Positions 34,059 through 56,907 of a DNA stretch of 64,000 nt are shown one piece after another. How positions within the stretch are numbered: position 1 is the stretch's first letter; every line of letters starts with the position of its first letter. The notes under the pieces are model-generated. The model was not told the DNA's origin. It was given only the letters and a program-made list of their open reading frames with translations, and did no database searches. The stretch lies in assembly GCA_002840435.1 (NCBI GenBank), contig PHAT01000005.1, forward strand, positions 100,460 through 164,459, given 5' to 3'. The position numbers and the translations under genes were made by a program. Source of the DNA: Deltaproteobacteria bacterium HGW-Deltaproteobacteria-6. GTDB lineage: Bacteria > Desulfobacterota > Syntrophia > Syntrophales > Smithellaceae.

Positions 34059-34086
34059 AAAATCAAAGATTTTGGGAGGAAGATCC

Positions 34087-36997: not shown

Positions 36998-37015
36998 TAA
37001 AGGAAAAAAGATAAC

Positions 37016-38827: not shown

Positions 38828-38831
38828 TGCC

Positions 38832-39716
38832 ATGAAAAAGATTTTGATCACGGGAGGAACGGGATTTATCGGACGTAATTTATGTGAACAACTGACGGGT
38901 TCTTATGAGACTGTCGCGCCGGCTTCCCGCAATCTTAATCTTTTAGATGATTTAGCTGTTTCCCGGTTTTTGAGCCAAGAACGCTTTGACGTCATCGTTC
39001 ACGCGGCGACCTGGAATGCGACCAAGACGTCTACAAAAGATATCGCCAAAGTATTTGAAAACAATCTGCGCATGTTTTTTAATCTGGCCCGATGCAGAGA
39101 TGAATATGGCAAAATGATTTACTACGGGTCAGGCGCGGAATTCGGCCGGGAAAATTGGAAGCCTAAAATGCGTGAAGAGGACCTTGACATGCATGTTCCA
39201 AATGATGCTTATGGTTTTTCGAAATATATTATAGCCAAATATACAATGAGCCGTCCCGATATTTATAATTTGAGACTTTTTGGTGTCTACGGGAAATATG
39301 AAGACTGGAGAATACGCTTCATCTCCAATGCCTGCGCCAAGGCTCTCTATGATATGCCGATCACCATTAAGCAAAACGTATTTTTTGATTATATGCATAT
39401 TGATGATCTGGTTAACATTACACGATGGTTTATCGAAAACAATCCCCGGCACAAAACATTAAACGTCTGCACGGCAAAGACGTATGATCTTTTAACCCTG
39501 GCGGGGATCGTTCGCAGCATTTCAGGTAAGAATGTCGATATTGCAGTGAAACACGATGGACTGGGACGGGAATACAGCGGAGATCATACCAAACTGATTG
39601 CCGAAACGGGCGGAATTCATTTTAAAAGCATGGAGGACGGCATCGCCGAACTCTATGGCTGGTATCAGGATAACAAAAAGAACATCAACAGCAATCTTCT
39701 GCTGGTGGATCCCTGA
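38832..39716 (+). CDS. NAD-dependent epimerase/reductase (GDP-fucose synthase-like SDR)
   Basis: About 294 residues. ILITGGTGFIGRNL is the Rossmann motif, IVHAATWNATK and YYGSGAEFGREN supply the catalytic region with Ser, and YGFSKYIIAKY is the YxxxK motif. The layout resembles GDP-4-keto-6-deoxymannose epimerase-reductase. Placed directly after the TPP enzyme, it could reduce the ketone of the branched sugar, as YerF does in yersiniose synthesis; this is inference. ATG 38832 is used; a start 5 codons earlier would overlap the TPP gene by 11 bases and is possible. Confidence 0.8.
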   Translation: MKKILITGGTGFIGRNLCEQLTGSYETVAPASRNLNLLDDLAVSRFLSQERFDVIVHAATWNATKTSTKDIAKVFENNLRMFFNLARCRDEYGKMIYYGSGAEFGRENWKPKMREEDLDMHVPNDAYGFSKYIIAKYTMSRPDIYNLRLFGVYGKYEDWRIRFISNACAKALYDMPITIKQNVFFDYMHIDDLVNITRWFIENNPRHKTLNVCTAKTYDLLTLAGIVRSISGKNVDIAVKHDGLGREYSGDHTKLIAETGGIHFKSMEDGIAELYGWYQDNKKNINSNLLLVDP

Positions 39717-39753
39717 AAGGAAGCGGCGGGTCAAATGCCCGCATGCAGGAAAT

Positions 39754-40896: not shown

Positions 40897-40921
40897 CCGC
40901 GTTCAGAACAGGGGAAAACCA

Positions 40922-41995
40922 ATGACACAAAAACAAGCAGATCTGCTCGATCGGGAACAAACCCGGGAACGTCTGAAAAAAGAGAAGCCGGCGGTATATG
41001 CCAAGTTTCTGGAGCTTGACCGCAAGGCCGCGCAGGGGCAAAGCCCGCCGCCGGTGATTGAAATTGCCTATCGCTACGACTGTAACCTCAACTGCGATCA
41101 TTGTTTTGCCAGTTGTTTTCAGAAGAAAAGCAGGCGGCTTTCTCTGGATGATCTCAGACAATTGTCTTTGCAGGCGGAAAAAATGGGCGTCTATCAGTTC
41201 ATCCTTCAGGGCGGCGAACCCCTGTTCTGGAAAGATTTTGATGATGTTGTCAACGCCTTGAACCCCCGGAATTTTTACATGGGTCTGGTCACCAACGCCA
41301 CGCTCCTTAACCGTGAAAGACTGGATCATCTGCGCGCTCTGGGCATCGACAAGATTGTGATGAGCCTCGATTCCTTCAACCAGGAGCAATATGAGACCAA
41401 TCGCCGCAAAGACGGCATTTTTCAGCACACCCTTGAAATGCTCAGGCAGGCCAGAGACGCAGGTCTACGCGTTGTCATCAACACGGTCGCTACGACGCAA
41501 AACGTCCGGGCGCCCGAACTGCTGAATCTGATTCAATTTGCCAAAGAAAACGGATTTATCATTTATGTGAATTTCGCCACACCCATCGGCAGTTGGAAAG
41601 GCCGTTACGACCTGCTTCTGACGCCGGAAGATGCGAACTATATCTATCAGCTCAACTGCGAACATGAAATTATCAAAAGAGATATTTTCCCCTACAAAGG
41701 CGTCAAGGTGCCCTGCCCCGCTTTACGCAGCGTCGTTTACATCACCGAATATGGCGATGTGCTGCCCTGTCCTTTTCTCCACATCGCCATCGGCAATATT
41801 TTGCAGGAGCCGCTTCCGGATATTTTGCGCCGCGGCATGACCATCTCGTGGTTTAAACACCCGCCATCCGTCTGCCTGGCAAGCGAGGATATGGATTTCA
41901 TAAAAAATAAAATCGCCGGCATGTACGGCAAACCCTCGCCGGTTGACATGTATGAGGTGTTCGCACCTGACGAGATGGAAAAGGAAAATACATGA
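40922..41995 (+). CDS. radical SAM protein with C-terminal cysteine region
   Basis: About 357 residues. The AdoMet radical cluster motif is YRYDCNLNCDHCFASC (CxxxCxxC) at about residue 50, and LQGGEPLFWKDF is the usual GGE motif. A C-terminal region with Cys in KVPCPALRS and LPCPFLHIAIGNILQEP resembles a shortened SPASM/twitch domain that holds extra FeS. Related proteins modify peptides or sugars by radical chemistry. Start moved to ATG 40922, preceded by GGGGAAAA. It overlaps the B12-binding radical SAM gene by 4 bases (ATGA), so the two are translationally coupled and may act in turn. Substrate unknown. Confidence 0.82.
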   Translation: MTQKQADLLDREQTRERLKKEKPAVYAKFLELDRKAAQGQSPPPVIEIAYRYDCNLNCDHCFASCFQKKSRRLSLDDLRQLSLQAEKMGVYQFILQGGEPLFWKDFDDVVNALNPRNFYMGLVTNATLLNRERLDHLRALGIDKIVMSLDSFNQEQYETNRRKDGIFQHTLEMLRQARDAGLRVVINTVATTQNVRAPELLNLIQFAKENGFIIYVNFATPIGSWKGRYDLLLTPEDANYIYQLNCEHEIIKRDIFPYKGVKVPCPALRSVVYITEYGDVLPCPFLHIAIGNILQEPLPDILRRGMTISWFKHPPSVCLASEDMDFIKNKIAGMYGKPSPVDMYEVFAPDEMEKENT

Positions 41996-43830
41996 ATGTC
42001 CTAATCGTTGTGCCGCATATGAACGCTTTATTCAAGCGAACCGATCTGGAAAACGTCACCGAATATCCATACAATTACACGTTTCCCATCGGGCCGGGAT
42101 ATATTTCCACAGCCTTGAAAAACGCCGGAATCAACACCTTTTGTGTAGATCTCAATTTCTACGATGATCCCATGCGCAAACTGGACCAAATGATTATGGA
42201 TCATCGCGTCGACGTTGTCGGCATCGGCGGCCTGTCGCGGGAATACTGGCGCATCAAGCATATTTTTGATCATATCAGGAAACACTATCCGCACATCATC
42301 ACCATTCTGGGCGGAGGCATCATCTCAGCCGAACCGGAACTGATCTTTACGGACATGAAAATCGATTTCGGCGTTCTGGGCGAAGGAGACAGGACCATCG
42401 TCGAACTGGTCCGGGCTCTGGAATCCGGCGGAAAACCCGCCGGGGTCAACGGCATTATTTTCAATGACAACGGCCGTCCGCTGATGACGCCCCCCCGCGA
42501 CGTCATTGCCAGTCTGGATGAGATGCCGCTGCCCGATTATGACAGTTTTGAACTGAACAAATATCTGGATTATCAAAAGTGCCTGGATTTCTGGTTTATC
42601 AAGGAGGACAATCCGCGAGCCCTGCCGATTGTCGCGAGTCGCTCCTGCCCTCACAATTGCACGTTCTGCTATCATACCGTACCGACTTACCGTCAGGTAT
42701 CGCTCGATCGTCTGTTTACCGATATCGAATACCTGGTCCCGAAATACAACATTAACTTCCTGTTCATTTACGACGACCTTTTCGCATCGTCCAAAAACAA
42801 CAGCCGATTGGTGGAATTCTGCCGGCGGATCAAACCGTTCGGCCTTCAATGGTACTGCCAGCTGCGAATCGACAGCAAGATTGACGAGCAGGTCCTTCAG
42901 GACATGAAGGAATCCGGCTGCGTGGCTATCGGCCTGGGCATTGAACACCTTGACGAAGATGTCCTCAAAAGCATGAATAAAAACATCAAACGCGCCCAGA
43001 TCGACCGGACGCTGCCGATGGTTTACGACGCCCAGGTGGGCATCGCGCCCAACATCCTGATTGGAGACGTGCGCGAGACGCGCGAAACCATCAACGCCTG
43101 TTATGAATGGTATCAAAAAAACCGCAGATATCAATTGAGCGTCGTGGAAGTCGTTCCTTATCCGGGTACAAAGCTTTATAAAACAGCGATTGAAAAAGGG
43201 TTGATTAAAGACCCGCTGGAGTATGTGCGTTCCGGGTGTCCCGGCATCAACTTCACGGGAATCGACCAGCAGGAATATGCGGGGCTGGTCCGCAAATTCC
43301 GCGACGACTTTTATCAGCCCGCGGAAAACGTGACCGTCAAATCGGGTTACGATCCGAACCGCGGCGACCTCTACACCATCGTGGCACGCTGCACTCATTG
43401 CGGCGAAATGAACGTCTATTCGAATGTCAGCAAGGTGCTGGTCAATGAACTGGGCTGCAAGAAATGCAATCATCGCTATTACCGGTTCCGCAATGAGGAT
43501 TATTACTTTTATATCAATCTGCCGAAACTCAAAGGCCTGATCGACAATAATCCGGACATGGCCATCGGCCTGTGCGGCCCCAGCAAAATCATCGCCGCGC
43601 TGGTGAACAATCTTGATGAGCATTACCGGCGGCACGTGGTCAAGGTCTTTGACATCAATCCCCAGCGGCAGGGCCTGAGTCTCGGGCAATATACGATCGA
43701 TAAAATTCCCGAAGACTTGTCGGAATTAAAGGGCGTGTTGGACATCATGTTCATTGCGGCGCAATTCTCTTATACTGAAATATACAACTCGATTGCCGAA
43801 TTGAGAAATCACGGCATCGAAATTGTCTGA
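41992..43830 (+). CDS. B12-binding radical SAM protein with C-terminal zinc ribbon and Rossmann-like module
   Basis: A 612-residue protein. Residues 1-140 resemble a cobalamin-binding domain (VVGIGGLSREYW, ITILGGGIISAEPELI, DFGVLGEGD); the DxHxxG base-on motif is not obvious. The radical SAM core has CPHNCTFCY (CxxxCxxC) near residue 220 and a BATS-free YPGTKLYKTA end. Then come two CxxC pairs (ARCTHCGEMN and LGCKKCNHRYY), probably a zinc ribbon, and a last module from about residue 520 (AIGLCGPSKIIAALVNN, VFDINPQRQGL) like those of the neighbouring FkbM proteins. Class B radical methylases methylate unactivated carbon or phosphorus, so C-methylation of a sugar is plausible. Confidence 0.82.
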   Translation: MNVLIVVPHMNALFKRTDLENVTEYPYNYTFPIGPGYISTALKNAGINTFCVDLNFYDDPMRKLDQMIMDHRVDVVGIGGLSREYWRIKHIFDHIRKHYPHIITILGGGIISAEPELIFTDMKIDFGVLGEGDRTIVELVRALESGGKPAGVNGIIFNDNGRPLMTPPRDVIASLDEMPLPDYDSFELNKYLDYQKCLDFWFIKEDNPRALPIVASRSCPHNCTFCYHTVPTYRQVSLDRLFTDIEYLVPKYNINFLFIYDDLFASSKNNSRLVEFCRRIKPFGLQWYCQLRIDSKIDEQVLQDMKESGCVAIGLGIEHLDEDVLKSMNKNIKRAQIDRTLPMVYDAQVGIAPNILIGDVRETRETINACYEWYQKNRRYQLSVVEVVPYPGTKLYKTAIEKGLIKDPLEYVRSGCPGINFTGIDQQEYAGLVRKFRDDFYQPAENVTVKSGYDPNRGDLYTIVARCTHCGEMNVYSNVSKVLVNELGCKKCNHRYYRFRNEDYYFYINLPKLKGLIDNNPDMAIGLCGPSKIIAALVNNLDEHYRRHVVKVFDINPQRQGLSLGQYTIDKIPEDLSELKGVLDIMFIAAQFSYTEIYNSIAELRNHGIEIV

Positions 43831-43844
43831 AAGGAAGGTCGTCC

Positions 43845-44957
43845 TTGAAAAATATGCTTTCTGATGAAATGATTTCCAGTCTTTTCGACTTTACTGAAAA
43901 AAATGTAGGGGCCTTCGATTTTCAGGAAGCCCTGATTTCCGACATTTTCAACAAAATTGTCCGGACGGGGGACATCGTCGTGGACGGCGGGGCGCATACG
44001 GGAAGGCACACGCAAACCCTGGCCGCGCTCGCCGGAGCAAAAGGCCGGGTTTATGCTTTTGAGCCTCTGCCCGCGCTGGCAACGGATCTTACCCGAAAAT
44101 ATCAGGCTTCTTCAAATGTTGGAATTATTCCCAAGGCTCTGTCCAACTCATCGGGAAAAACACGGTTTATTTTTGTGAAAAATAATCCAAGTTACAGCGG
44201 CATCGAGGCATCCAACCGATTGACCGACGCTCAGAATATCGAAATCGAAGTTGAAACGACCACGCTGGATGCAGAACTGGCAGGCGAGACATCCTGCCGG
44301 CTGATCAAGCTGGATGTCGAAGGCGCGGAATACCTGGCGCTGTCCGGCGCATTGAATATTCTGGACCATTTGGCGCCGCTGGTGCTGCTGGAAAATGACT
44401 TGCAACAGACGGCCACCCGCTATGGATACAGCCGGGAACAGTTCTTTGACATCTTCACAAGAACCGGTTACCGGTTGTTCGACATTACCGGCATCGAAAT
44501 TACTGAAGATCACTGGATCGGCAGGAGGCCGCACTTTGACAACTTCATCGCCGTGAAAAGGCCTGAGGATATTGATTTTGTCAAAACCGGTTTGCCGCAG
44601 CTCCTGTTTGCCACGCTTTTGAAAATGAATTACGTTATTGCCGATGTGACACGAAATATTTTTACCGTCATGCAATGGATTGCCTCCGGTCAAAAAGTCG
44701 TTCTCTTCGGCGCGGGAAACCGGGCCCGCCTGATTCTGGAAAATTATCCCGTGCCGTTTGCTTACGCAGCCGACAATGACCCGGGAAAAACCGGCGGCAA
44801 ATTGTGCGGCATTGAGATCTTCTCACCTGCAAAACTTCTGGAGGAATCCAAAGATCTGAAAATTGTCATCATCAGTCTTTGGGGAGCGGAGATTCAAAAG
44901 CAATTAATCGAAATGGGGTTTTCACCTGACCGCATTTTAAAGTTGAATATCCACTGA
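43845..44957 (+). CDS. FkbM family methyltransferase with C-terminal Rossmann-like domain
   Basis: A 370-residue protein. The SAM-binding site is IVVDGGAHTGRHTQTLAAL at about residue 45, followed by YAFEPLPAL and IKLDVEGAEYLAL, the FkbM pattern. From about residue 285 a second module begins with KVVLFGAGNRARLILENY, then AADNDPGKTGGKLCG and IISLWGAEIQKQLIEMG; it resembles the C-terminal domain of sugar C-methyltransferases and the N-terminal module of the FkbM protein at 39754. It likely methylates a sugar of this island. A TTG start at 43845 fits the GGAAGG 6 bases upstream; ATG 43854 is an alternative. Confidence 0.8.
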   Translation: MKNMLSDEMISSLFDFTEKNVGAFDFQEALISDIFNKIVRTGDIVVDGGAHTGRHTQTLAALAGAKGRVYAFEPLPALATDLTRKYQASSNVGIIPKALSNSSGKTRFIFVKNNPSYSGIEASNRLTDAQNIEIEVETTTLDAELAGETSCRLIKLDVEGAEYLALSGALNILDHLAPLVLLENDLQQTATRYGYSREQFFDIFTRTGYRLFDITGIEITEDHWIGRRPHFDNFIAVKRPEDIDFVKTGLPQLLFATLLKMNYVIADVTRNIFTVMQWIASGQKVVLFGAGNRARLILENYPVPFAYAADNDPGKTGGKLCGIEIFSPAKLLEESKDLKIVIISLWGAEIQKQLIEMGFSPDRILKLNIH

Positions 44958-44971
44958 TAATATTTTGAAAG

Positions 44972-46033
44972 ATGGAAAACGGTCATATGGACATACCCAA
45001 ATATACCCAACTGAGACAGGATGAGCGCCCCTCGCTGGAAAGGCTACTGCCTTTGTCTTTCCCGATCAGTCTGTACATTGAACCCACCAACCGGTGCATG
45101 TTTCGCTGCACGTACTGTCCGATGTCGATTGCCGACTACGAAAAAGAAGCGGGCGGATTCCGGACGATGACCTTTGCCGAGTTTCAAAAGATCGCTTCCG
45201 ACATCCGGGCGGGCGGTTCTTTGAAAGTCCTGAGGTTTTATTTCATGGGCGAACCGCTTCTCAACCCCGATCTTCCCGAGATGATTGCGCTGGCCTGTAA
45301 TATGCAGCTTGCCGAACGAACCGAATTAACCACCAACGGTGTTCTGCTCAATGACGCAATGTCCAAATCTTTGATTCGTTCGGGACTTGATTATCTGCGA
45401 ATCAGCATTTCGAGCGTGAACCAGAACAGACATGAACGGGTAACGCAGTCACGCATAAAAGTTGAGAAAATATACGATAACATCCGCCGGTTCAAAGATA
45501 TACGCAATGAAATGGGTTCGAAAAAGCCTTTTCTCTATGTAAAACTTCTGGATCCTGCAAATTCCGCCGAGCGATCCACCTTCCTGGATATGTATCAACC
45601 GATCGCCGATGAGGCAGTCATCGAAGAGCCGATGAACTGGGACAGTTACGGCGATCACGATCTAATGGCCGCACTTTACGGAACCAGGACTCAAACCGGC
45701 AGCGACCATTCGCATTCCCATCCCAAGGAAGTCTGCCCTTTTCCCTTCTACACTCTGGCCATCACAGCCAACGGCGACGTAACGGTCTGTTGCGTGGACT
45801 GGAATAAGGCGACAAAAGTAGGAAACGTTTTTGAATCCTCCCTGAAAGACATCTGGGATGGAGACAAAATGCAAGCGTTCCGCCGCATGCATATCAACCG
45901 GCAGCGGCGGAACAACCCTTCGTGCCGCAACTGCACGTTTCTTTATTCAGCACCGGATAATCTGGATCATCTGTCTGACGACACCCTGTCAGCACTTCTT
46001 ACTCAAAACACATTCGGCGGAAATAAGACATGA
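44972..46033 (+). CDS. radical SAM/SPASM domain protein
   Basis: A 353-residue radical SAM enzyme. EPTNRCMFRCTYCPMS (CxxxCxxC) is at about residue 40, YFMGEPLLNPDLPEM is a GE-type motif, and the C-terminus has a SPASM pattern (VCPFPFYTLAI, VTVCCVDW, GNVFESSLKDIWDG, CRNCTF) for auxiliary 4Fe-4S clusters. SPASM proteins often modify peptides, but in glycan loci they are also linked to sugar changes. The start at 44972 or the ATG at 44987 cannot be separated with confidence. Its TGA overlaps the ATG of a 44-codon remnant as ATGA. Confidence 0.83.
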   Translation: MENGHMDIPKYTQLRQDERPSLERLLPLSFPISLYIEPTNRCMFRCTYCPMSIADYEKEAGGFRTMTFAEFQKIASDIRAGGSLKVLRFYFMGEPLLNPDLPEMIALACNMQLAERTELTTNGVLLNDAMSKSLIRSGLDYLRISISSVNQNRHERVTQSRIKVEKIYDNIRRFKDIRNEMGSKKPFLYVKLLDPANSAERSTFLDMYQPIADEAVIEEPMNWDSYGDHDLMAALYGTRTQTGSDHSHSHPKEVCPFPFYTLAITANGDVTVCCVDWNKATKVGNVFESSLKDIWDGDKMQAFRRMHINRQRRNNPSCRNCTFLYSAPDNLDHLSDDTLSALLTQNTFGGNKT

Positions 46034-46256
46034 AGATAAGCATATTGACCACGGGAATTTACGCGCGGCGTTCCATCGACAAAACGCGGACGGGAAGAGT
46101 TGGATGTGAGACAGGTTATGGATTAATCCTGAAAAAGGGATCAAGAGGATTATTCCTTACATGACGTGCATCTTAATAGTTACTTTGAAAAGTTGATCGT
46201 AATGATTGCGCATAAGGGATGCCTTGAAATTTTGGGGATGACATATGAAATTTACT
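46030..46256 (+). pseudogene. probable gene remnant: ATGA-coupled 44-codon frame plus a second coding-like frame
   Basis: An ATG overlaps the stop of the radical SAM gene (ATGA, the same coupling used by several island genes), and reads MKISILTTGIYARRSIDK for 44 codons to a TGA at 46162-46164. From 46133 another frame is open and protein-like (DYSLHDVHLNSYFEKLIVMI and a short rest) to a TGA at 46254-46256, inside the next gene. Together they look like the two ends of a gene shortened by deletions and frameshifts. The original function is not recognisable. A functional mini-gene of 44 residues (46030-46164) is the alternative. Confidence 0.4.
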
Positions 46257-46781
46257 GAAACCGCCATGAAAGGCTTATGGGTTATCGATTCCCATTTCTT
46301 CGCCGATGAAAGAGGTACTTTAGTAAAGCCGTTTGAGTATCATCAGTATTTTGCCAGAGGCCTTCAGTGCAATTACGAGGAAACCTTCTACTCCGTTTCC
46401 AGGAAGGGCGTTATCAGAGGATTCCATTTTCAACTTCCTCCCATGACATCAGAAAAGCTTGTCTGGGTGTCTCAGGGAATGATTCTTGATGTTGTCCTTG
46501 ATCTGCGGGTGCAATCGGAATCGTATCAGCAGATTTTTTCCATTGAATTGTCCGCGGAAAATCATAAAGCGATCTATCTGCCTCAAGGGCTGGCTCATGC
46601 TTTTTGCGTTCTGAGTGATAAGGCCACCGTGTATTATCAAATCAGCAAAGCGCATTCGCCGGAAAAGGATAGCGGCATTAAATGGAATTCCGTGAACTTT
46701 GATTGGCCTGTTGAGAATCCCATTGTTTCTAAAAGGGATAATGAGCTGACGGATTTGAAATCCTTCAAGTCCCCCTTCTGA
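46245..46781 (+). CDS. RmlC-like nucleotide-sugar 3,5- (or 5-) epimerase
   Basis: A 178-residue cupin of the dTDP-4-dehydrorhamnose 3,5-epimerase family. VIRGFHFQLPP holds the catalytic His region, ILDVVLDLR the core strand, YLPQGLAHAFCVL the conserved P-x-G-x-AH-x-F motif and ATVYYQISKAHSPEKDSGI the substrate-closing part with Tyr. As the island makes CDP-deoxysugars and contains no dTDP-rhamnose genes (RmlA, B, D), it may act on a CDP-4-ketosugar, as AscE (CDP-3,6-dideoxy-4-ketohexose 5-epimerase) does in ascarylose synthesis. The SDR gene follows after 7 bases. Confidence 0.85.
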   Translation: MKFTETAMKGLWVIDSHFFADERGTLVKPFEYHQYFARGLQCNYEETFYSVSRKGVIRGFHFQLPPMTSEKLVWVSQGMILDVVLDLRVQSESYQQIFSIELSAENHKAIYLPQGLAHAFCVLSDKATVYYQISKAHSPEKDSGIKWNSVNFDWPVENPIVSKRDNELTDLKSFKSPF

Positions 46782-46788
46782 GGAAAAT

Positions 46789-47700
46789 ATGAAAATACTG
46801 GTAACGGGTGCCACAGGTTTTATCGGAAGAAACCTTTCCAGCGCACTGGCAAATGACAGCGACAACCAAATCTATGCATTAATGCGACAGGCATCGGACA
46901 AGACCATGCTGCACAGGAATGTTATTCCTGTTGAATATGAAAGTGTAGGCAAATTAATCAATACCCTGAAGCAACAGGAAATTGAAGGCATCGTGCATTC
47001 GGCCGGATATTTTATTGCAAACCATGACACCGTTGATATTGATAAGTTAATTGATGCGAATGTTTTATTCGGATCTCGCGTTATAGAAAGCGGCACTCGG
47101 GCAGGGATAAAGTGGTTCATCAATACCTCCTCTTTCTGGCAGCATTATCAGAATATGCCTTACAACCCCGTCGCTCTTTATGCAGCCACTAAAAAAGCCT
47201 TCGAGGATATTCTCCTTTATTATGTTGAGACATCATCTGTCAGAATTGTTAATCTGGAATTATTCGATACCTATGGAGCTAACGACAATCGCCGGAAGCT
47301 GTTCCGGTACCTCCTGGATGCGATGGAAAGCGGCGCCACATTGTCAATGTCGCCCGGCGAACAACTGATCAACCTTGTTTACATAGATGACGTCATCTCC
47401 GCTTATCTGCTGACGATACAAGCACTGCACAAAGGTTACCCTCAACTGGAAAAAAATTATAGCGTTTCTTCAAAGGATCTGCATTCATTAAAAGATGTGG
47501 TTAAATTATTTTCCGAAAAATTTGAAAAACCAATATCTATAAATTGGGGTGGTATTCCATATAGACCAAGGGAAGTAATGAATCCTTATCCCCAATATGC
47601 TGAAGTTCCGGGCTGGTCCCAGCAATACAACCTGAACCTGGGGATAAAAAAACTATTGGAAGCATACATCGGAAAAAGCGCCGAGGCAAAAAATGAATAA
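46789..47700 (+). CDS. NAD-dependent epimerase/dehydratase (CDP-abequose synthase-like reductase)
   Basis: A 303-residue extended SDR. ILVTGATGFIGRNLSSAL (NAD(P) site), IVHSAGYFIANHDTVD, INTSSFWQHYQNM (Ser region) and LYAATKKAFEDIL (YxxxK) are followed by LELFDTYGANDNR and INLVYIDDV. The AGYFI/NTSSFWQHY features are those of RfbJ-like CDP-4-keto-3,6-dideoxyhexose 4-reductases. With the RmlC-like epimerase before it, it would complete a CDP-3,6-dideoxyhexose such as ascarylose or abequose. The stop overlaps the start of the giant glycosyltransferase gene by 8 bases. Confidence 0.83.
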   Translation: MKILVTGATGFIGRNLSSALANDSDNQIYALMRQASDKTMLHRNVIPVEYESVGKLINTLKQQEIEGIVHSAGYFIANHDTVDIDKLIDANVLFGSRVIESGTRAGIKWFINTSSFWQHYQNMPYNPVALYAATKKAFEDILLYYVETSSVRIVNLELFDTYGANDNRRKLFRYLLDAMESGATLSMSPGEQLINLVYIDDVISAYLLTIQALHKGYPQLEKNYSVSSKDLHSLKDVVKLFSEKFEKPISINWGGIPYRPREVMNPYPQYAEVPGWSQQYNLNLGIKKLLEAYIGKSAEAKNE

Positions 47701-50700
47701 GACAAAAACAATGAAAGAGACCACCCCCCTTCTTTCCATATTAATACCGACGTGGAACCGGGTTGATCAGGTTATTCGGGCAATCGAAAGCATCGGGCCT
47801 TCACCCGGGGACCTTGAGGTGATCGTCGTAGACAACGCATCCGATGAAGCAATATCCAACCGCCTGAAAGAACTTCTGGCCGGCAAAGATTATGTCAGAT
47901 TCTTCCGGAATGAAGCAAATATTGGAATGGTCAGAAACTGGAATAAATGTATTGCGTATGCAAAAGGCAAGTGGATGGGGTTGTTATGCTCGGATGATGA
48001 GTATTACCCGGGCGCCGTTCATCACATTCGCGACATCCTCCGCTCAAGACAAACCCCCGCCGTCGTTTTACAGGACGCCAGTATTGCCGCTCCATATGTC
48101 ATCTGCAAAGCAGGCGCGGAAACCATCCGTGGGATCCGTCTCCCCCTGGCTTCAGGCAATTTCTGGCATAGAGATGTCAGTGAGACAATCGGTCCATTTG
48201 ATGAAAGACTGGAATACAGTCCCGACGCTGAATACTGGTTCAGAGCCGCTTCCCGGTTTCCGGTTATCAAGGTCAAAAAACCGATGGCCAAATACCATGC
48301 CCACGAATCGAACTATATGTGGGAAACCTGGGCTAAAGACGATTTCCTTGATCAGACGGCTCTATTGATTCGCTTAAATTGCAGATATTTATCAGGCGAT
48401 CAATACAATGATGAAACCGTTAATCGTGTCATTGATGACGGTCTGAAACAGACACTTTTCACCATTCTCGAAACCACAGCGCTGATGATCGACAAAAAAG
48501 ACTTATTCGATCGATATTGTGAAGTTGCAAACACAATGATGAAAACAGAAGATGAATCACAACGATTATCGCGCATGATTTCCAGGCATCATGCGTTTCT
48601 GAATAATCTGGGAAGAACAACTGGAGAATCTATGGAGAAATCAAATAATATGAACATACCCATAACCTTCATGATTACAGTCTATAACGAAGAATCCCGC
48701 ATCCGGTATGTTTTAGAGCACGCGGTGCGCTGGGCGGACGAGATCATCGTGTTTATCAAGGCCTCAACGGACAGAACCAGGGCAATCTGCGAGGAATTCG
48801 GCGAGCGGGTCAAAATTATTGACAGACCGTTTAGCCCAAGAGGTCATGGAGACACGGTAGGCGATGCCCAACAGGCCAGCAATAACTGGATATTCTTCGG
48901 GACAGCATCTGAAATACCGACCTATAACCTCATCCAGAATGTCAGGAATATGCTATCTGAAACCAAAGGGGAACTTGACCTGATCTATGTCCCTCGCAAA
49001 TATTATTCATTTGGCATTCATGATAAACGATCACCATGGTACATAAGTTATTTTCCTTTTTTAATAAACAGGGACCGGGCCATTATTGCCAATGTGATAC
49101 ACTCCAATTTCAGACCGAGGAATCCACAGAATACACGAGTCATCCAGTTTTCCGATGATTGCTGTGTGTATCATTTTACGCATCCATCGGCCAAAGATTA
49201 CATGTTGGACATGACCCAGTATTTTGAAGCTGAAGCAGAAAGCTGCACCGATCCTGCTCAAAAAATCCAGATGTGTATCAATAACATTGCGCAATTTGAA
49301 AAGCAGCTGGTAGACGCAGGGCCTCCGCTTCTTGGACATTATCTGGCCTGGCATATTTATTGGTTGGGCACTGCGCTGTTTGTGTGGGAAAAGCAGAGGG
49401 GGTTAAACGTAGGAGAATATTACAGAGCTTTGCAGGAAGAAATCATCCAAAAGGAATGGTTGTCTCCCAGGGAACAGAAGGAAGCGTTGTTTCCCGGAGA
49501 ACAATATGACAATATCAGAAAAATGCTGGAACAAAATAACCATGTCATGGCCATTGAGGCACTGGAGAAAGTTCTCGTTGATCATCCTAATCTTGGCATA
49601 GCCCATCATGATCTTGCGACGCTCTACTCCCAAACGGTAAACAGTGAGAAAGCTCTTGAACATTATGAACTGGCGGTAAAGTTAGAACCGAATAACATCA
49701 CCTTTTTAAAAAGCATGGCTAATTTCCTTTACACCAGACAAAAAGAAACGCAAAAGGCTTTACAACTATACATTAAAATCCTGTCAATTAATCCGGCTGA
49801 TATTGAAGTTCTTTTGGTGCTCGGTCATATTGCAACTGATAACGGACAGCTGGATCGCGCAAAAGACTTTTATAGGAGAGTCCTCGATATTGACCCTGCC
49901 AATACTGACGCCTGTAGATGGTTTGCAATGCTCGGCGGCCAGAATCACGACATGAAGCCAAAGCAGGTTGATCCCGCTGAAACTGATGTCACAAATTCAA
50001 CGGAAGATTATCTCGTCTCGGCCATCGTCTCGGCATATAATTCCGAACGCTTCATCCGTGGGTGCATTGAGGATCTTGAAGCTCAGACGATTGCAGATAA
50101 ACTGGAAATTGTCGTTGTGGATAGTTGTTCTCCGCAAAAGGAACGTGCCGTCGTGGAGGAGTTTCAAAGAAAATACTCCAATATCAAGTACATCAGAACC
50201 GAAGAACGCGAAACAGTCTACGCGGCTTGGAACAGAGGAATAAAGGCCGCTTCAGGAAAATATATCACCAATGCCAATACCGATGATCGTCACCGCAAAG
50301 ATGCATTTGAAATCATGGTTAATGAGCTTGAAAGAAAACCGGAAATTACCCTGGTCTATGCCGATGTGATCATAACGGAAAAGGAAAATGAAACCTTCGA
50401 TCAGCATACACCTTGCGGCCATTACAGATGGTATGACTGGGACAGAAGCGTCCTGCTCAATCAAGGATGTTTTATGGGACCGCAACCGATGTGGCGACGA
50501 TCCGTTCATCATGAATACGGATATTTTGACGACTCAATGGTGTCATCGGGTGATTATGAATTCTGGTTGCGCATATCGCAAACCCACAATTTTTTTCACA
50601 TCAAAACGCCGCTTGGATTATATTTAAAGTCCCCCGAAAGCATTGAACACAGCAACAGGGAAAAACAACGGGATGAAAACAACAGGATTCTGGCTTTATA

Positions 50701-53563
50701 CCGTCAAAAAGCTCAACAAAAGCAGGCGGCGGAATCTGACGCCGTAAAAGAAATTTCTCCGCTGATGAATCCTGAATTCATTACCGGCATGACATCCATT
50801 ATCATTCTCACGCAAAACCGGCTAGATCAAACAAAAAAATGCGTCAAAAGCATCCGCAAATATACATCGGAAGCCCATGAGATTATTTTTATTGATAACG
50901 GCTCTACCGACAGCACCGTCAAATGGCTGCAAGGTCAGATCAGGGAAAATAAAAACTGCCGTTTGATTGAGAACAAAAAAAATGTTGGACTTCCAAAAGG
51001 TCGGAATCAGGGCATCAATCTGTCCACGGGTGAATGGATTGTCCTGATAGATAACGATACGGTGGTCAGCGAAGGCTGGCTTTCCGGAATGCTGGAATGC
51101 CTGAACCATGCACCTGCTGCGGGCATCGTCGGCCCCATGACCAACAGCACCAACGGTCTTCAGCAGGTAACGGACGAAGCCTATCAAACTGCGGATCGAC
51201 TCGATAAATTAGCGGCAGCCTTTAAAGAACGATTTCACAACCGCCGGATTCCCTACCGCGATATTAAAGGATTCTGCATGCTGTTCAAGCGGACACTCGT
51301 GGAAAAGATCGGCCTTTTCGACGAACGTTTCGACTCCGGTCGTTTTGAGGATGAAGATCTCTGCTGGAGATCCGCACTGGAAGATTATCAAAATTACATT
51401 TGTGGAGATGTATTCATTTATCATTCCGGAGGAAAAAGATCGTCCGGTGACCGGCAGGTCATCGATAAAAAGTGGTCCCTCAGCATGGCAACCCCTGAAG
51501 GCAGGAAAATGGCTATTCTGAAAGCTTCTGAATTTGCCGATATTTTATATTCACAGGGAAAAATCGATCAGGCCGTTGAGGCTCTCGTTAATTGCATTAA
51601 ATTTTCCCCGGACGCAAAGGAAATTTATTATGAGCTGACCCGCATGTTTATTGAATCCAAAAGATTTTCCGAGGCATGGGAAGTTGTCGGGACCATGCCC
51701 GAAACCGCAAAAAGTGAACTTAAGGGTCTGGAATGTGCGGGTTATGCCAAGGAGGGTCTCGGGCTGGATGATGAAGCGGCCGGGTATTTGGACAAAATGT
51801 TGTCTTTGAACGAAAACTACCCTCCCGCGCTGAATTTAAAAGGCGTCCTGGCGTATAAAAAAGGTGATAAACCGGAAGCGTTATCCTGTTTTCAGAAGGC
51901 TATTAATGCTGATCCGGGTTATGGCGAAGCCTATACCAATCTGGGCGTTCTGGATTGGGGAATGGATGATAAAAAAAATGAAGCCCTGACCCATTTGAAA
52001 AAGGGCTTCATTCTGTCGCCAACCTTACCGGATGCCAGTTCGCTTTATTACTCAGTTGTCTCTTCTTTGGGTCTGTTCGATGACGCAGAAGCCGATTTTC
52101 GGGAAGTTGCCAACCGGTATCCCAGCAACAAGAATATTGCCTTTTTATTCATAGATATTCTCATCCAGCAGGCCAAATTTACTGAGGCTTTGATTCTTAT
52201 TCAAGATGTGCTTGTTTCGTATGGCCTGGACGACAGCATTCTGAATGCTGCCGTGGCTGTCCGTGAAAACGTTGGCCCTCTTCAAATTGAAAAAACATCA
52301 AAAAAAGGCACTCTGTCGCTTTGCATGATTGTGAAAAATGAAGAAAAACATCTGGTCAGATGTTTAAAAAGCGTGAGGGATGTCGTCGATGAAATAATTA
52401 TGGTGGATACGGGCTCAACGGATAGAACCATTGATATCGGTAAAATCTTCGGGGCAAAAATATTTGAGTTCCCCTGGACAGGCGATTTTTCGGCCGCTCG
52501 CAATGAATCACTCAAATATGCTACGGGCGATTGGATACTGATACTGGACGCTGATGAGGTTCTGTCGCCTCTGGATTTTAAAGAACTCAAAGACATCATT
52601 CACAAGAAGTCGTCGTCACCTGCCGCGTATTCCATCATCACGAGAAATTACTTGAATAACATGAGTGTGATTGGATGGATGCCGAACACCGGGCAATACC
52701 CCGAAGAAGCGGGAGCCGGATGGGTGCCTAGCCCGAAGGTCCGCCTTTACCCGAGAAGAAAAGAGGTTTTCTTTATCAATCCCGTTCATGAACTGCTGGA
52801 GAGTTCATTGAAAAAGGCTAAAATTCCAATCCATCCCAGTAACATTATTGTTCATCACTACGGGAAATTGGATATGGAGCGGGACGCCCAGAAAGGCATT
52901 GATTATTATCTGTTGGGGAAAATCAAATATGAAAGCGACCCAACCAACATGAAATATATTTATGAACTGGCCAAGCAAGCTCATCTGCTTAATAAATATG
53001 AAGAATCTGTAGAACTGTGGCTCAAGCTTCTGTCTCTTTACGAAAAGAATGCTTCATTACCGAGTCATCAGGAATTCTTGAATTTTACATTCGGTGATCC
53101 GTTACCCGAAATTTACACACAACTTACTGCAGCGCTCTTGTCTCTTAATCGCTTTAATGAAGCGCTGGAAGCAGCAACCAAAGCCATGGCACAGAAGACA
53201 AAACTCAAAGAATGTATCAATCTCTACGCGATGTGTGAAATGGTCGCAGGTTCGCTGGACAGGGCGTTTCACGCACTGGAAAATCAACTCAAAGCCATGC
53301 CCGACTACGCCCCGGCACTGGTTCTGAAAGGGGCCATTCACTGCCTGCAAGGGGAAAACGACAAATCGCATGAAATATTCAGTTCAATGAAGGAGAAAAG
53401 GATAAGCATTTCCACCTTGCTGAACAAATTATCCAGAAACTTTCATACCATCGGAAAGAATGACAAGGCTTTGCTCATCCTCAACGCGGAGATTGAAAAT
53501 AAAATAAGCAATATGGAAACCATGGAATTGCTTGAACAGATCAATAAAGAGATGGCAAACTAG
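47693..53563 (+). CDS. giant multidomain protein: five GT2-like glycosyltransferase modules with three TPR blocks
   Basis: A 1956-residue soluble protein. Module order: GT2-a (residues 10-250; LSILIPTWNRVDQV, LCSDDEYYPG), GT2-b (320-600; FMITVYNEESR, but its DxD position reads GTASE), TPR block (605-760), GT2-c (770-1015; VSAIVSAYNSERF, NANTDDRHR), GT2-d (1033-1270; SIIILTQNRLDQT, LIDNDTVVSEG), TPR block (1280-1530), GT2-e (1538-1770; LSLCMIVKNEEKHL, ILDADEVLS) and TPR block (1780-1950). No signal peptide or membrane helix is seen. Several bound glycosyltransferases on one chain suggest stepwise glycan assembly, and TPRs suggest a protein acceptor, as in Caulobacter FlmG. The gene ends beside the flagellin operon, making flagellin the likely target. 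Function is inferred. Confidence 0.85.
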   Translation: MNKTKTMKETTPLLSILIPTWNRVDQVIRAIESIGPSPGDLEVIVVDNASDEAISNRLKELLAGKDYVRFFRNEANIGMVRNWNKCIAYAKGKWMGLLCSDDEYYPGAVHHIRDILRSRQTPAVVLQDASIAAPYVICKAGAETIRGIRLPLASGNFWHRDVSETIGPFDERLEYSPDAEYWFRAASRFPVIKVKKPMAKYHAHESNYMWETWAKDDFLDQTALLIRLNCRYLSGDQYNDETVNRVIDDGLKQTLFTILETTALMIDKKDLFDRYCEVANTMMKTEDESQRLSRMISRHHAFLNNLGRTTGESMEKSNNMNIPITFMITVYNEESRIRYVLEHAVRWADEIIVFIKASTDRTRAICEEFGERVKIIDRPFSPRGHGDTVGDAQQASNNWIFFGTASEIPTYNLIQNVRNMLSETKGELDLIYVPRKYYSFGIHDKRSPWYISYFPFLINRDRAIIANVIHSNFRPRNPQNTRVIQFSDDCCVYHFTHPSAKDYMLDMTQYFEAEAESCTDPAQKIQMCINNIAQFEKQLVDAGPPLLGHYLAWHIYWLGTALFVWEKQRGLNVGEYYRALQEEIIQKEWLSPREQKEALFPGEQYDNIRKMLEQNNHVMAIEALEKVLVDHPNLGIAHHDLATLYSQTVNSEKALEHYELAVKLEPNNITFLKSMANFLYTRQKETQKALQLYIKILSINPADIEVLLVLGHIATDNGQLDRAKDFYRRVLDIDPANTDACRWFAMLGGQNHDMKPKQVDPAETDVTNSTEDYLVSAIVSAYNSERFIRGCIEDLEAQTIADKLEIVVVDSCSPQKERAVVEEFQRKYSNIKYIRTEERETVYAAWNRGIKAASGKYITNANTDDRHRKDAFEIMVNELERKPEITLVYADVIITEKENETFDQHTPCGHYRWYDWDRSVLLNQGCFMGPQPMWRRSVHHEYGYFDDSMVSSGDYEFWLRISQTHNFFHIKTPLGLYLKSPESIEHSNREKQRDENNRILALYRQKAQQKQAAESDAVKEISPLMNPEFITGMTSIIILTQNRLDQTKKCVKSIRKYTSEAHEIIFIDNGSTDSTVKWLQGQIRENKNCRLIENKKNVGLPKGRNQGINLSTGEWIVLIDNDTVVSEGWLSGMLECLNHAPAAGIVGPMTNSTNGLQQVTDEAYQTADRLDKLAAAFKERFHNRRIPYRDIKGFCMLFKRTLVEKIGLFDERFDSGRFEDEDLCWRSALEDYQNYICGDVFIYHSGGKRSSGDRQVIDKKWSLSMATPEGRKMAILKASEFADILYSQGKIDQAVEALVNCIKFSPDAKEIYYELTRMFIESKRFSEAWEVVGTMPETAKSELKGLECAGYAKEGLGLDDEAAGYLDKMLSLNENYPPALNLKGVLAYKKGDKPEALSCFQKAINADPGYGEAYTNLGVLDWGMDDKKNEALTHLKKGFILSPTLPDASSLYYSVVSSLGLFDDAEADFREVANRYPSNKNIAFLFIDILIQQAKFTEALILIQDVLVSYGLDDSILNAAVAVRENVGPLQIEKTSKKGTLSLCMIVKNEEKHLVRCLKSVRDVVDEIIMVDTGSTDRTIDIGKIFGAKIFEFPWTGDFSAARNESLKYATGDWILILDADEVLSPLDFKELKDIIHKKSSSPAAYSIITRNYLNNMSVIGWMPNTGQYPEEAGAGWVPSPKVRLYPRRKEVFFINPVHELLESSLKKAKIPIHPSNIIVHHYGKLDMERDAQKGIDYYLLGKIKYESDPTNMKYIYELAKQAHLLNKYEESVELWLKLLSLYEKNASLPSHQEFLNFTFGDPLPEIYTQLTAALLSLNRFNEALEAATKAMAQKTKLKECINLYAMCEMVAGSLDRAFHALENQLKAMPDYAPALVLKGAIHCLQGENDKSHEIFSSMKEKRISISTLLNKLSRNFHTIGKNDKALLILNAEIENKISNMETMELLEQINKEMAN

Positions 53564-53619: not shown

Positions 53620-54003
53620 TTAATCTGCCGGGCTCCCGCGAAGACCCGCGGCCAGATTCAGATTAATGTCAATAATAATTTTGAGTTTTTCCGGATCCGG
53701 CTGCGCCATGACCTGAATAATTCTATTATCAATAAAGACGCTCAGTGTTAGAATATTGTTACGAATCTCAACGGGCAAAGGGTTGTCGTCCTTGATCAGT
53801 TCCGACTGCAAAATACTCCAGACCACCTGGTTTACGCGGAGCGCATCGGCCAGCGCTGCGTCATGATCAGGAGCATCCCAGTTTTTCCGGCAGTCGGAAA
53901 GCAGAACCGCGCACCGGGTCAAGGCGGCGGCTTCAATATCCCTTCCCGATGTATTATCAATATTCTGAACTTTTCTATAGGCATCGAGTTGCTTCGTGTA
54001 CAC
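53620..54003 (-). CDS. flaF: flagellar biosynthesis regulator FlaF (copy 1)
   Basis: A 127-residue FlaF family protein. DIEAAALTRCAVLL, the VNQVVWSILQSELI helix and LPVEIRNNILTLSVFID are the conserved parts. In Caulobacter FlaF is needed for flagellin synthesis or secretion and opposes FlbT. It starts with GTG after GGTAGAGG, like the second copy. It is about 70% similar by eye to the copy at 54286, so the pair arose by duplication. It ends 56 bases from the end of the giant glycosyltransferase gene, which converges on it. Confidence 0.88.
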   Translation of the reverse strand: MYTKQLDAYRKVQNIDNTSGRDIEAAALTRCAVLLSDCRKNWDAPDHDAALADALRVNQVVWSILQSELIKDDNPLPVEIRNNILTLSVFIDNRIIQVMAQPDPEKLKIIIDINLNLAAGLRGSPAD

Positions 54004-54028: not shown

Positions 54029-54334
54029 TTACCTCGAAACCTTCAAATTGACAAGCATGGCATCCGGCCATTTTGCATGCTGTTTCAAAAATTTACCCGG
54101 AGCCTTGATGGAAGAAAACACATTATCGATAATGTGGTCATTCCAGCAAATAAATGGCCATGATGATTGGGGGGTTTTGTCGCCGAATTTCAGCTGAATG
54201 AAATTCCATGTTCTGCATTTAAAGTTACCTGTTGAAATGCACAGCCTTCGCTGCCAGCAATGAACTGGAAGCGCTGACCTTTTTTCTAGTCCGCCGAACT
54301 GCCGCGCAATCCCGCTGCCAGATTTAGATTGATG
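54029..54334 (-). pseudogene. open coding-like frame between the two flaF genes, without a normal start codon
   Basis: On the minus strand 101 sense codons are open from within the 3' end of flaF copy 2 to a TAA at 54029-54031. The translated C-terminal part looks protein-like (for example WPFICWNDHIIDNVFSSI and LKQHAKWPDAMLVNLKVSR), but no ATG, GTG or TTG occurs before a GTG at 54121. A second frame just after the flaF stop is also protein-like (GQRFQFIAGSEGCAFQQVTL) until a TGA. This suggests a decayed gene with a frameshift. No family was recognised. A chance open frame is possible. Confidence 0.35.
54119..54136. promoter_or_regulatory. perfect 18-bp palindrome upstream of flaF copy 1
   Basis: CACATTATCGATAATGTG reads the same on both strands. 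It is 116 bases upstream of the flaF copy 1 start. The length and symmetry fit a dimeric regulator site, but it also lies within the coding-like remnant at 54029-54334, so it may be fortuitous. Confidence 0.4.
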
Positions 54335-54672
54335 TCAATCAGAATCTGGAGCTTTTCAGGCTCAGGACTAGCCATGACCTCAATGATCCTTTTGTCGATA
54401 AAGACGCTGAGAGTAAGCAGATTGTTGCGAATCTCGATAGGCAGGGGGTTGTCATCATTCGCCAGTTCCGATTGCAGAATACTCCAGACCATCTGGTTGT
54501 TTCTCAATGCTTCGTCCAGATGTGCATCACGACCGGCGGCATTCCAATTATTCTGACAAGCGGAAAGCATCAGGGCGCAGCGCGTCAGAGCTGCGGCTTC
54601 GATATCCCGTCCGGACATGTTATCATTGGTATTATGCGCTGTTCTATAAGCTTCGAGTTGCATTGCGTACAC
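54286..54672 (-). CDS. flaF: flagellar biosynthesis regulator FlaF (copy 2)
   Basis: About 128 residues. MSGRDIEAAALTRCALMLS, NNQMVWSILQSELANDDN and IEIRNNLLTLSVFIDKRI match copy 1 nearly position by position. The GTG at 54672 is chosen, with AGGAGG 9 bases upstream and alignment to copy 1 (VYAMQLEAYR against the first residues of copy 1); an ATG 9 codons upstream gives a longer, less conserved N-terminus. The ribosome site and first codons lie inside the end of flbT (29-base overlap), so FlbT and FlaF are translationally coupled, as befits two opposing regulators of flagellin. Confidence 0.88.
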   Translation of the reverse strand: MYAMQLEAYRTAHNTNDNMSGRDIEAAALTRCALMLSACQNNWNAAGRDAHLDEALRNNQMVWSILQSELANDDNPLPIEIRNNLLTLSVFIDKRIIEVMASPEPEKLQILIDINLNLAAGLRGSSAD

Positions 54673-55051
54673 GGTCGATAACCTCCTGTTCATATTCAAT
54701 GAGTTTTTTTGTCAGTTTCAGCGCCTGGTAATACCGTTCATCAAGTATTTTTTCACTGATCTCCTGCAGGACCGGCTTTCTGCTGGGCGCAGCTTTGGCC
54801 ACATCCTTGACCAGTTCCCAAAATGTTTTGTGGTGCTCCGGCAGATTTTTGCCATCAACATACATCAGCTGTATGGCAAAATATATTCTTTTGCAGGGCG
54901 TGTTTGCCGATGCCAGCGTCATAATATCTTTTTCACGCAGGATCGGCACATCATTTTCAACGACAAAAGTACTTTTGGCATCACCGTTGGCGATGACCGC
55001 TCCACCCAGAATGAATTTTTCACAAGGCTTCAGCGTTATCTTGAGCGCCAT
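54644..55051 (-). CDS. flbT: flagellin mRNA regulator FlbT
   Basis: A 135-residue FlbT family protein. LKITLKPCEKFILGGAVIAN is the conserved N-terminal sheet; CKRIYFAIQLMYVD and YYQALKLTKKLIEYEQEVI are the helical part. In Caulobacter, FlbT binds the 5' untranslated region of flagellin mRNA and promotes its decay until the hook is complete. Here the flagellin mRNA leader is about 150 bases with two stems, consistent with such control. It lies between an unknown gene and flaF copy 2 in the flagellin cluster. FlaF/FlbT are best known from Alphaproteobacteria, so this cluster may have been acquired by transfer. Confidence 0.92.
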   Translation of the reverse strand: MALKITLKPCEKFILGGAVIANGDAKSTFVVENDVPILREKDIMTLASANTPCKRIYFAIQLMYVDGKNLPEHHKTFWELVKDVAKAAPSRKPVLQEISEKILDERYYQALKLTKKLIEYEQEVIDRVRNATRSL

Positions 55052-55497: not shown

Positions 55498-55515
55498 AAG
55501 CTGCACCTTTTAACC

Positions 55516-55569: not shown

Positions 55570-56907
55570 TTATCCGAACAGTTTCAGAACCGACTGGGCT
55601 GCCTGCGCCGACAGACTCAGAGCCGTGGTGGAAAGAGACTGACGGGTCTGCAGCATCAGCATGTTGGCGCCTTCTTCGTTCGAATCGGCCAGTGTCAGCA
55701 TATCCGAACCTGAATTCAGCGTATTAATCATGTTCGTCGAGAAGCTCTGACGAACGGTGATGATACTCAAGTTGCCGGAAAGTTTGGACGCTTCCGAACG
55801 CAGAGTGGTTGTCGCAGCATCAAGAGCCGTAATGGCGGCGTCAATGTTTGCAGGTGTAGCGCCCCAAGCAGTTGCAGTTGCTGCGGCAATATTGAGGCCG
55901 GCAACACCTGTTGATGCATCAAAGCCTACCACATCCAGTGTGGTGCCTTCAAACTTAACGGTCATGGTATCGGAGCTCAGAAGGTTTTTACCCTTATACC
56001 CGGAGTCTTCCGCCAACTCATCCATCTGAGTACGCAACGTGTTGTACTGACCAACGATTGATGTCATTTCAGCGGACGGTATATAAGCAAACGCCGCAGT
56101 GACCGCTCCGGCGGCTGAAACCAGTGTTCCAGCATCATCAATTGCAGTATTACCTTCGATGGCCGTGGCCAGAGCAGCGGCGGCATCAGCAGCGGTTGCG
56201 CCTGTTGCGCTGAACGATACGGCAGCATCACTGATGGTTAAACTGACTGAGAAGGTTTCCATGTGGGCAACTGCTTCAGTTTTCCCCAGGGTAGCGGCAC
56301 TGCCTGTAATATCACCAACTACCACGTCTGCCCCGGTATTAGAAATTCTTACGCTGCCACCGACGACAGAAGCTGTGTAACCGGCTGCTATCATGGTCGT
56401 GTTTGCGCCAATGTCTGCCACCAGATCAGAAGTGGTACCATCCCACCCGCCGGAAGTTACAGTAAACGTATAAGTACCGTCTACAATAAATGTTTGACCG
56501 TAAGTAATACCGGAAGCCACAAATGTCGCAGAAACCGATGAATACTGAACTTCAATAGTCGCATTTTTCTCAATAGTGGTCGGGGTGGTGCCAGCAGCCG
56601 CGCTCTGTGCGGACTGCGCAAGACCTTTGGCCTGTTCAATCATTGTGCTGAGCGCCGTGATGCCTTTATCGGCGGCGGTGATCGTCTGAACGGCCTGACC
56701 CATTGCATCCTTCAAACCATCGATAATGGCCGCGCGGGAGTTCAATGCCTGCGCAGCAAAATAGGATACCGGGTTGTCCATTGCTGTGTTAACTTTTTTG
56801 CCTGTGGAAAGGCGGTTTTGTGTGCGGTCCAAAAGGGTAACTGTGTTCTGAAGAGATTGAAGGTTGGATCTCATTCCTGTGGTTAATGATATGTCATTAA
56901 TAGCCAT
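55570..56907 (-). CDS. flagellin
   Basis: A 445-residue flagellin. The N-terminal D0/D1 region (residues 1-105; LSTGKKVNTAMDNPVSYFAA, ALNSRAAIIDGLKDAMGQAV) and the C-terminal D0/D1 region (about 365-445; ending MLMLQTRQSLSTTALSLSAQ and SVLKLFG) frame a variable Ser/Thr/Ala-rich middle suited to O-glycosylation. It is exported by the flagellar type III system and polymerises as the filament; no cleaved signal peptide. The C-terminus and the flbT/flaF neighbours are of the kind found in Alphaproteobacteria. A sigma-28 promoter and long leader precede it; AAAGGAG is the ribosome site. Confidence 0.95.
   Translation of the reverse strand: MAINDISLTTGMRSNLQSLQNTVTLLDRTQNRLSTGKKVNTAMDNPVSYFAAQALNSRAAIIDGLKDAMGQAVQTITAADKGITALSTMIEQAKGLAQSAQSAAAGTTPTTIEKNATIEVQYSSVSATFVASGITYGQTFIVDGTYTFTVTSGGWDGTTSDLVADIGANTTMIAAGYTASVVGGSVRISNTGADVVVGDITGSAATLGKTEAVAHMETFSVSLTISDAAVSFSATGATAADAAAALATAIEGNTAIDDAGTLVSAAGAVTAAFAYIPSAEMTSIVGQYNTLRTQMDELAEDSGYKGKNLLSSDTMTVKFEGTTLDVVGFDASTGVAGLNIAAATATAWGATPANIDAAITALDAATTTLRSEASKLSGNLSIITVRQSFSTNMINTLNSGSDMLTLADSNEEGANMLMLQTRQSLSTTALSLSAQAAQSVLKLFG

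Follow-up and report, generated by a model that had tools for sequence, protein, structure and literature searches.

A 1956-residue protein with five GT2 modules and three TPR blocks: a candidate modular flagellin glycosyltransferase

What could a single polypeptide do with five glycosyltransferase domains, and on which acceptor would they act? The question is raised by a gene at 47693..53563 (plus strand) of the window, by which we mean the whole stretch of 64,000 nucleotides that was analysed.

Architecture of the protein

The gene is a single ATG-started, stop-free frame encoding 1956 aa, and its start overlaps the 3' end of the sugar epimerase/reductase gene upstream. The initial annotation read five GT2 modules and three TPR blocks on this one chain, and the layout was borne out by the intact frame, by Pfam (five stretches of PF00535, whole-protein E 9e-107, plus many TPR families) and by a profile iterated from the five modules of the protein itself, which set the module positions. 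With this profile, GT2 domains were placed at aa 14, 324, 775, 1034 and 1541, and TPRs started at aa 612, 642, 679, 711, 1282, 1384, 1426 and 1815. GC content (0.43-0.46) and third-codon GC (0.46-0.50) are even along the frame, which argues against a chimera.

All parts lie on the plus strand. The chain begins with the GT2 modules M1 (aa 10-235, 47720..48397, with SDDEYY and PDAEYW motifs recognized by eye) and M2 (aa 318-560, 48644..49372), followed by TPR block 1 (aa 604-748, 49502..49936, from Pfam and the iterated profile) and M3 (50000..50707), a GT2 module common to L055, L056, L191 and L076. The remainder, hereafter the core, consists of M4 (50780..51478), TPR block 2 (aa 1268-1527, 51494..52273), the GmaR/SunS-like GT2 module M5 (52304..52927) and the TPR-like helical block 3 (aa 1746-1956, 52928..53560). 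Acidic DxD-type motifs were found by eye in M1, M3, M4 and M5; M2 has none, and its DxD position reads GTASEIP.

The modules were also suspected to represent unlike GT2 types. Their pairwise identity of 11-24% agrees with this, as does a phylogeny of 91 modules, in which those of the window fall into separate clades; a recent near-identical duplication can be discarded on the same grounds. Bootstrap values of this tree had not settled, and M1 sits on a long branch whose place is unsure. The M4 copies are united in a single clade (28 rows, 98/93), and M3 belongs to a five-member clade (98/100) drawn from core proteins as well as from proteins that lack the core. The partner of M2 is a stand-alone protein (100/100), and the two group with the M5 side of the tree (100/98), at a join that the tree program flags for long branches. 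Structure prediction, proposed earlier for each module, succeeded for the M4/M5 half: in the AlphaFold2 model of aa 1028-1956 (mean pLDDT 91), each of two GT-A domains is followed by helical repeats. For aa 1-1020 (6-row alignment) it was poor (pLDDT 52.7), reaching fair confidence only in TPR block 1 and part of M2, and this model was left out of the fold search.

A C-terminal core beside flagellin genes

Conservation is concentrated at the C-terminal end. The stretch aa 1030-1950 is 57-67% identical in genomes of the same genus, family and order and 43-45% identical in two same-order genomes; at greater distance, with Geobacteraceae, Desulfobacterales and Nitrospirae records among the sources, core identity is 33-53%. 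When a full core was defined as a best stretch running from profile position 70 or lower to 690 or higher, 28 distinct full-length cores were counted, the window's included. Duplicates (L185 and L189) and fragments such as L054, L074, L075, L077 and L196 were left out, and the partial L018 was added only to alignments and to the comparison of N-terminal part and core pairs. Full-length relatives come from Deltaproteobacteria, Desulfobacterales, Geobacteraceae, Syntrophorhabdus and Nitrospirae records, nearly all of them MAGs.

In all 28 proteins the core forms the C-terminal end; L052 and L053 have about 440 aa added after it, with one more M5-like copy, and the frames of L187 and L195 end after M5. 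Among the 28 rows with both modules, invariant columns number 16 in M5, 8 in M4, 2 in TPR block 2 and none in block 3, and columns conserved at 90% number 51, 20, 19 and 4, respectively. Once L195 is dropped, the invariant columns of M5 rise to 32. The statement that all invariant core columns lie in M5 holds for a 31-row alignment, but two of its rows lack M4, and it was given up after the 28-row recount. Partial cores occur as well: M5-TPR alone (about 400 aa) is present in three genomes, and G277 has M4-TPR without M5. In L074 (388-3221), the frame of the core breaks within the conserved stretch between its halves; we rejected a natural two-gene core here, as a frame change inside a conserved stretch may be a sequencing error or a real break.

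Immediately downstream of the gene, all on the minus strand, two FlaF genes lie side by side (53620..54003 and 54286..54699), adjoining FlbT (54644..55051) and a flagellin of 445 aa (55570..56907), the proposed acceptor. A 141-aa ORF between FlbT and flagellin (55081-55506) matches no family; ORFs weakly related to it occupy the corresponding position in L048, L050 and L064.

The link to flagellin, at first a guess, is now supported by conserved synteny and by the GmaR likeness of M5. Where 4 kb or more of DNA is available downstream (23 loci), a convergent flagellin gene is found no further than 4 kb from the core gene in 19 cases, against a rough chance expectation of 0.02 for 23 loci. Over all 28 core loci the number is 22, each with FlaF and FlbT in between. 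As for the others, flagellin is on the same strand as the core gene in L195, and none was found on the available stretch of the L194, L072 and L076 loci. FlaF/FlbT are 5.5 kb away in L076; the L194 and L072 stretches showed no flagellin, FlaF, FlbT or MotA/MotB, and the L194 genome has its flagellin elsewhere. In L066, where 2.3 kb of downstream DNA is available, MotA/MotB adjoin the core gene, and the L187 gene is near a contig end, with no convergent flagellin counted.

The association extends to whole genomes. Among 395 genomes of the phylum, the 17 with a core-profile match at E<=1e-100 (some holding part of the core only) all contain flagellin, compared with 243 of the 395 overall (hypergeometric 2e-4, kinship ignored). 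The window's genome has two flagellin-like ORFs, one being the neighbour of the 1956-aa gene; the second, flagellin-N-like and 827 aa long, is elsewhere (contig C1 of G000, L213). No match to PF01973 (Maf-type) was obtained in this genome, which is weak evidence for Maf absence since the control matched only archaea; nor is PF01973 among the matches listed for the 1956-aa protein (25 of 30 Pfam families). The gene stands at a flagellin locus together with sugar-nucleotide genes, the arrangement of a flagellin glycosylation island enzyme.

Within the core, M5 points most directly to flagellin. Its closest solved relative by sequence is the GT domain of GmaR (22ao, E 3.2e-27), with the acidic KNEE/DTGSTD/DADE motifs aligned, and its fold resembles that of SunS (Z 24.3, 3.2 A over 280 residues). 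GmaR is not among the best 50 matches listed by Foldseek or VIA-align for the core, and these searches were not counted as evidence. Helical repeats with Pfam TPR matches follow M5 at aa 1728-1955 in the AlphaFold2 model. Of 31 rows, 29 retain six motif residues of M5; the two others are L187, where one is changed and the frame ends just past M5, and L195, where the fused M5 is degenerate. Directly downstream of the latter is a separate M5-type gene of 436 aa with intact motifs (the two genes lie at L195: 8790-10097 and 10107-17105), as if M5 activity were supplied in trans. M5 is likely the transferase of the first sugar to flagellin.

Exchangeable N-terminal parts and the upstream sugar genes

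The part ahead of the core measures 350 to 2697 aa where the frame start is on the contig (L051, L066 and L193, cut at a contig edge, were not counted). Pfam scans covered it in 24 of the 27 other full-core proteins and in the partial L018 and L054; L047, L049 and L050 were scanned in part, with L051 (contig edge), L066 and L076 outside the scan. Domains of GT2, GT4/GT1-type, GT9, GT10 and WbsX kinds are mixed differently from protein to protein, together with FkbM and class-I methyltransferases and with sulfotransferase-like, radical SAM, Maf-related MptE-like and capsule-synthesis domains. When 29 N-terminal parts (some edge-cut) were compared in 406 pairs, 95 pairs matched at all (E<=1e-10) and 8 matched over more than 70% of both.

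The window protein itself has cores 64% identical in L049, 62-63% in L048 and L050, and 66% in the partial L018, with no N-terminal match to any of them. The opposite relation was also observed: M3 is 65% identical to that of the Nitrospirae MAG L076 while the cores are 36% identical, a methyltransferase pair shared by L048 and L187 is 78% identical against 56% for the cores, and shared N-terminal parts exceed the cores in L053/L067 (63% vs 52%) and L052/L068 (61% vs 52%). The window protein unites two kinds of module, those of the conserved core at its C-terminal end and the exchangeable ones ahead of it. Judging from these identities, modules and core have different histories, the modules having been exchanged between lineages.

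The M1-M2-TPR1 stretch as a whole was not found in any other genome among 395 of the phylum at E<=1e-20; only its parts were, and M1 has no relative at this threshold in the 395 genomes. The TPR-M3 arrangement ahead of the core recurs in L191, with extra TPRs in between. Some related giants deserve mention on their own. A fusion of 1760 aa without a core (L056: 10122-15401) combines FrhB/FdhB-like, polysaccharide pyruvyl transferase, GT9, TPR and M3-type GT2 parts. In a core protein of 3377 aa (L069: 3485-13615), several GT modules occur alongside a methyltransferase and a Maf-related MptE-like stretch that scores above its cut-off. Second giant proteins with TPR blocks, of at least 3274 and 1351 aa, are encoded directly upstream of the core gene in L053 (10177-19998) and L052 (12460-16512).

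Upstream of the gene, an unusual sugar-tailoring set occupies one operon (31576-46033, plus strand). It starts with RfbH, CDP-glucose 4,6-dehydratase and glucose-1-phosphate cytidylyltransferase of the CDP-3,6-dideoxyhexose branch (31576..34863, all above curated cut-offs). These are followed by a NeuB-like synthase with a cupin tail (34886..36391), an acetolactate-synthase-like ThDP enzyme with a sugar epimerase/reductase (37016..39716), and two FkbM methyltransferases, two SPASM radical SAM proteins and one B12 radical SAM protein (39598..46033). A 191-aa ORF of the operon (36422-36997) has no Pfam or NCBIfam match. Directly upstream of the 1956-aa gene, also on the plus strand, lie an RmlC-like 3,5-epimerase (147.6 bits, just under the cut-off of 155.75) and an NAD-dependent sugar epimerase/reductase (46245..47700). 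The three CDP-branch enzymes with the RmlC-like epimerase and the reductase are reminiscent of CDP-ascarylose biosynthesis, and we suspect that the acetolactate-synthase-like enzyme belongs to a yersiniose-like branch.

The best PDB match of M2 by sequence is GmaR (E 5.6e-5), and a class-wide search for M2 gave weak matches of at most 35% identity in 12 of 155 genomes besides the window's own. Its stand-alone relative (L199: 75-1388) is 46% identical and keeps GTASEIP. On that contig RfbH (53%), RmlC (36%) and reductase (38%) precede the M2 relative in the same order as in the window, with about 2 kb containing other ORFs between reductase and M2 relative. From this shared order, M2 is likely the transferase of that sugar, i.e. 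it probably transfers the CDP-3,6-dideoxyhexose product of the upstream genes. The idea of M2 as a dead domain was dropped in view of this relative, which combines the same motif with the same sugar genes.

Proposed mode of action and comparison with known systems

We consider it probable that the 1956-aa protein is a soluble cytoplasmic enzyme that O-glycosylates flagellin in several steps. In the proposed model, the TPR blocks would bind unfolded cytoplasmic flagellin ahead of its export, and the GmaR-like M5 would prime the glycan by placing a first sugar onto Ser/Thr of flagellin. M4, and then M3, M2 and M1, would extend or decorate it. Activated sugars for these modules would be supplied by the upstream genes, including the CDP-3,6-dideoxyhexose probably used by M2, and final changes to the sugars may be made by the operon's separately encoded methyltransferase and radical SAM proteins. 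Exchange of N-terminal parts would then alter the outer glycan and leave the enzyme's hold on flagellin unchanged. We infer the sequential order from homology and from the constant position that the core occupies in the chain.

The modules could instead act in parallel, each putting its own single sugar on a different flagellin site with no chain formed. The recurrence of TPR blocks between GT modules, here and in several relatives, would suit such an arrangement, as they could place each transferase on its own site, and the position of M2 and M5 on the same side of the tree (subject to the long-branch warning there) is also in its favour. However, M1, M3 and M4 resemble glycan-extending enzymes, both in NCBIfam (PRK10073, EpsD, PglI and TuaG, all below cut-offs) and in the PDB (chondroitin synthase and RmlT). 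The fold neighbours of M4 are too many to name its sugar, and in comparison with chondroitin synthase-type dual-GT2 enzymes the whole-chain rmsd is about 20 A, so that at most one module fits at once. The methyltransferases in many N-terminal parts fit sugar decoration, and the C. difficile flagellin example is sequential according to excerpts of PMC5207246. Parallel action is, in our opinion, unlikely.

An enzyme of surface polysaccharide or glycolipid synthesis that merely adjoins flagellar genes is less probable still. An LPS-type cluster does lie at 1.0-10.4 kb of the window, about 37 kb upstream of the gene, and mixtures of GT2 and GT4 enzymes with FkbM genes are common in polysaccharide clusters. 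Nevertheless, flagellin, FlbT and FlaF accompany the core gene in different families and also in the Nitrospirae MAG L065, all 17 sampled genomes with a strong core match contain flagellin, and M5 is GmaR/SunS-like. No hint of a glycolipid acceptor emerged from the sequence data.

We regard as slightly more doubtful again a largely vestigial fusion, in which M5 (perhaps with M4) alone works and the N-terminal modules are passengers. M2 without a DxD motif would agree with this, and so would M4, which has lost motif residues in 6 of 29 rows (the other 23 retaining all three), three further rows (L047, L191 and L073) being degenerate by eye. As for M4, these losses suggest that two sugars are not necessarily added by every core. 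But the M3 shared with L076 is far more alike than the cores of the two proteins, and GTASEIP of M2 persists in a distantly related genome, close to the same set of sugar genes; such retained likeness is not expected of passengers.

Finally, that M5-TPR chiefly controls flagellar gene expression, with the other modules secondary, is very improbable: GmaR is both a flagellin GlcNAc transferase and an antirepressor, and FlbT (a regulator by its NCBIfam name) adjoins the gene, but the antirepressor activity of GmaR resides in a C-terminal domain past TPR and linker (excerpts of PMC9638930), the block of about 210 aa found here seems too short for all three, and the M5 motif residues are nearly always kept.

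The multi-step enzyme that we favour might even be a true assembly line of protein glycans, in which the module content, read from C- to N-terminus, would write the glycan, units would dock on the constant core, and broken modules would be skipped or replaced in trans. We put this forward only tentatively, as a possibility that we would not bet on. Flagellin glycans vary widely among strains, and the glycan made is hard to read from a genome. Here, a single chain carries transferases and tailoring enzymes in a set order, next to a core that stays constant and is linked to flagellin, so related bacteria could make different flagellar sugar chains by swapping parts. If the order of modules predicts that of the glycan, it would offer a sequence-readable and engineerable route to defined protein glycans, as well as an evolutionary model of antigen change via module exchange. 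If the assembly line is true, glycan structure would be predictable from gene sequence and could be re-programmed through domain swaps.

How does the protein compare with known systems? Our searches of open-licence literature listed nothing on modular flagellin enzymes of this kind, and the words TPR, tetratricopeptide, multi-domain and fused are absent from a survey of Geobacillus flagellin islands. With the Listeria flagellin O-GlcNAc transferase/antirepressor GmaR it shares a GT domain followed by TPRs and, as proposed here, the flagellin acceptor; binding of flagellin through TPRs has been proposed for GmaR (excerpts of PMC9638930). GmaR differs in its length of 637 aa, its single GT domain and its antirepressor domain, whereas the window protein has five GT modules and a short tail. 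Together with its helical tail, M5 is similar in fold to the peptide S-glycosyltransferases SunS and ThuS (Z 24.3 and 20.2), yet these are single GTs acting on peptide; membership in the SunS family was rejected, as NCBIfam TIGR04195 scored 110 bits against a cut-off of 350.

The FlmG system of Caulobacter is linked to FlbT. FlmG is likewise a TPR-containing flagellin glycosyltransferase, from a system with FlaF, and its binding of flagellin through TPRs was shown; in contrast to the GT2 modules with TPRs between them described here, it has 596 aa, with an N-terminal TPR and then one GT-B domain (excerpts of PMC7591256). Membership in the FlmG/OGT group (TPR plus GT-B) was also rejected, since M4 and M5 are GT2/GT-A and all five modules belong to PF00535.

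The stepwise logic is matched by GT1, GT2 and GT3 of C. difficile type B flagellin, which add GlcNAc and then two rhamnoses, the GT2 protein carrying a methyltransferase domain as well. These enzymes are separate proteins, however, and the word TPR is absent from the text searched (excerpts of PMC5207246). Several GT domains on one chain, making a cytoplasmic protein glycan, are known from chlorovirus A111/114R, a three-GT protein proposed to build part of a glycan with a constant core and virus-specific decorations. It differs as a viral protein with three GT domains acting on an N-glycan, and neither TPR nor module exchange appears in the consulted excerpts of PMC7826918. The best reading of these comparisons is a function like that of GmaR and FlmG with several transferases on one chain, i.e. 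a new modular TPR-type flagellin glycosyltransferase.
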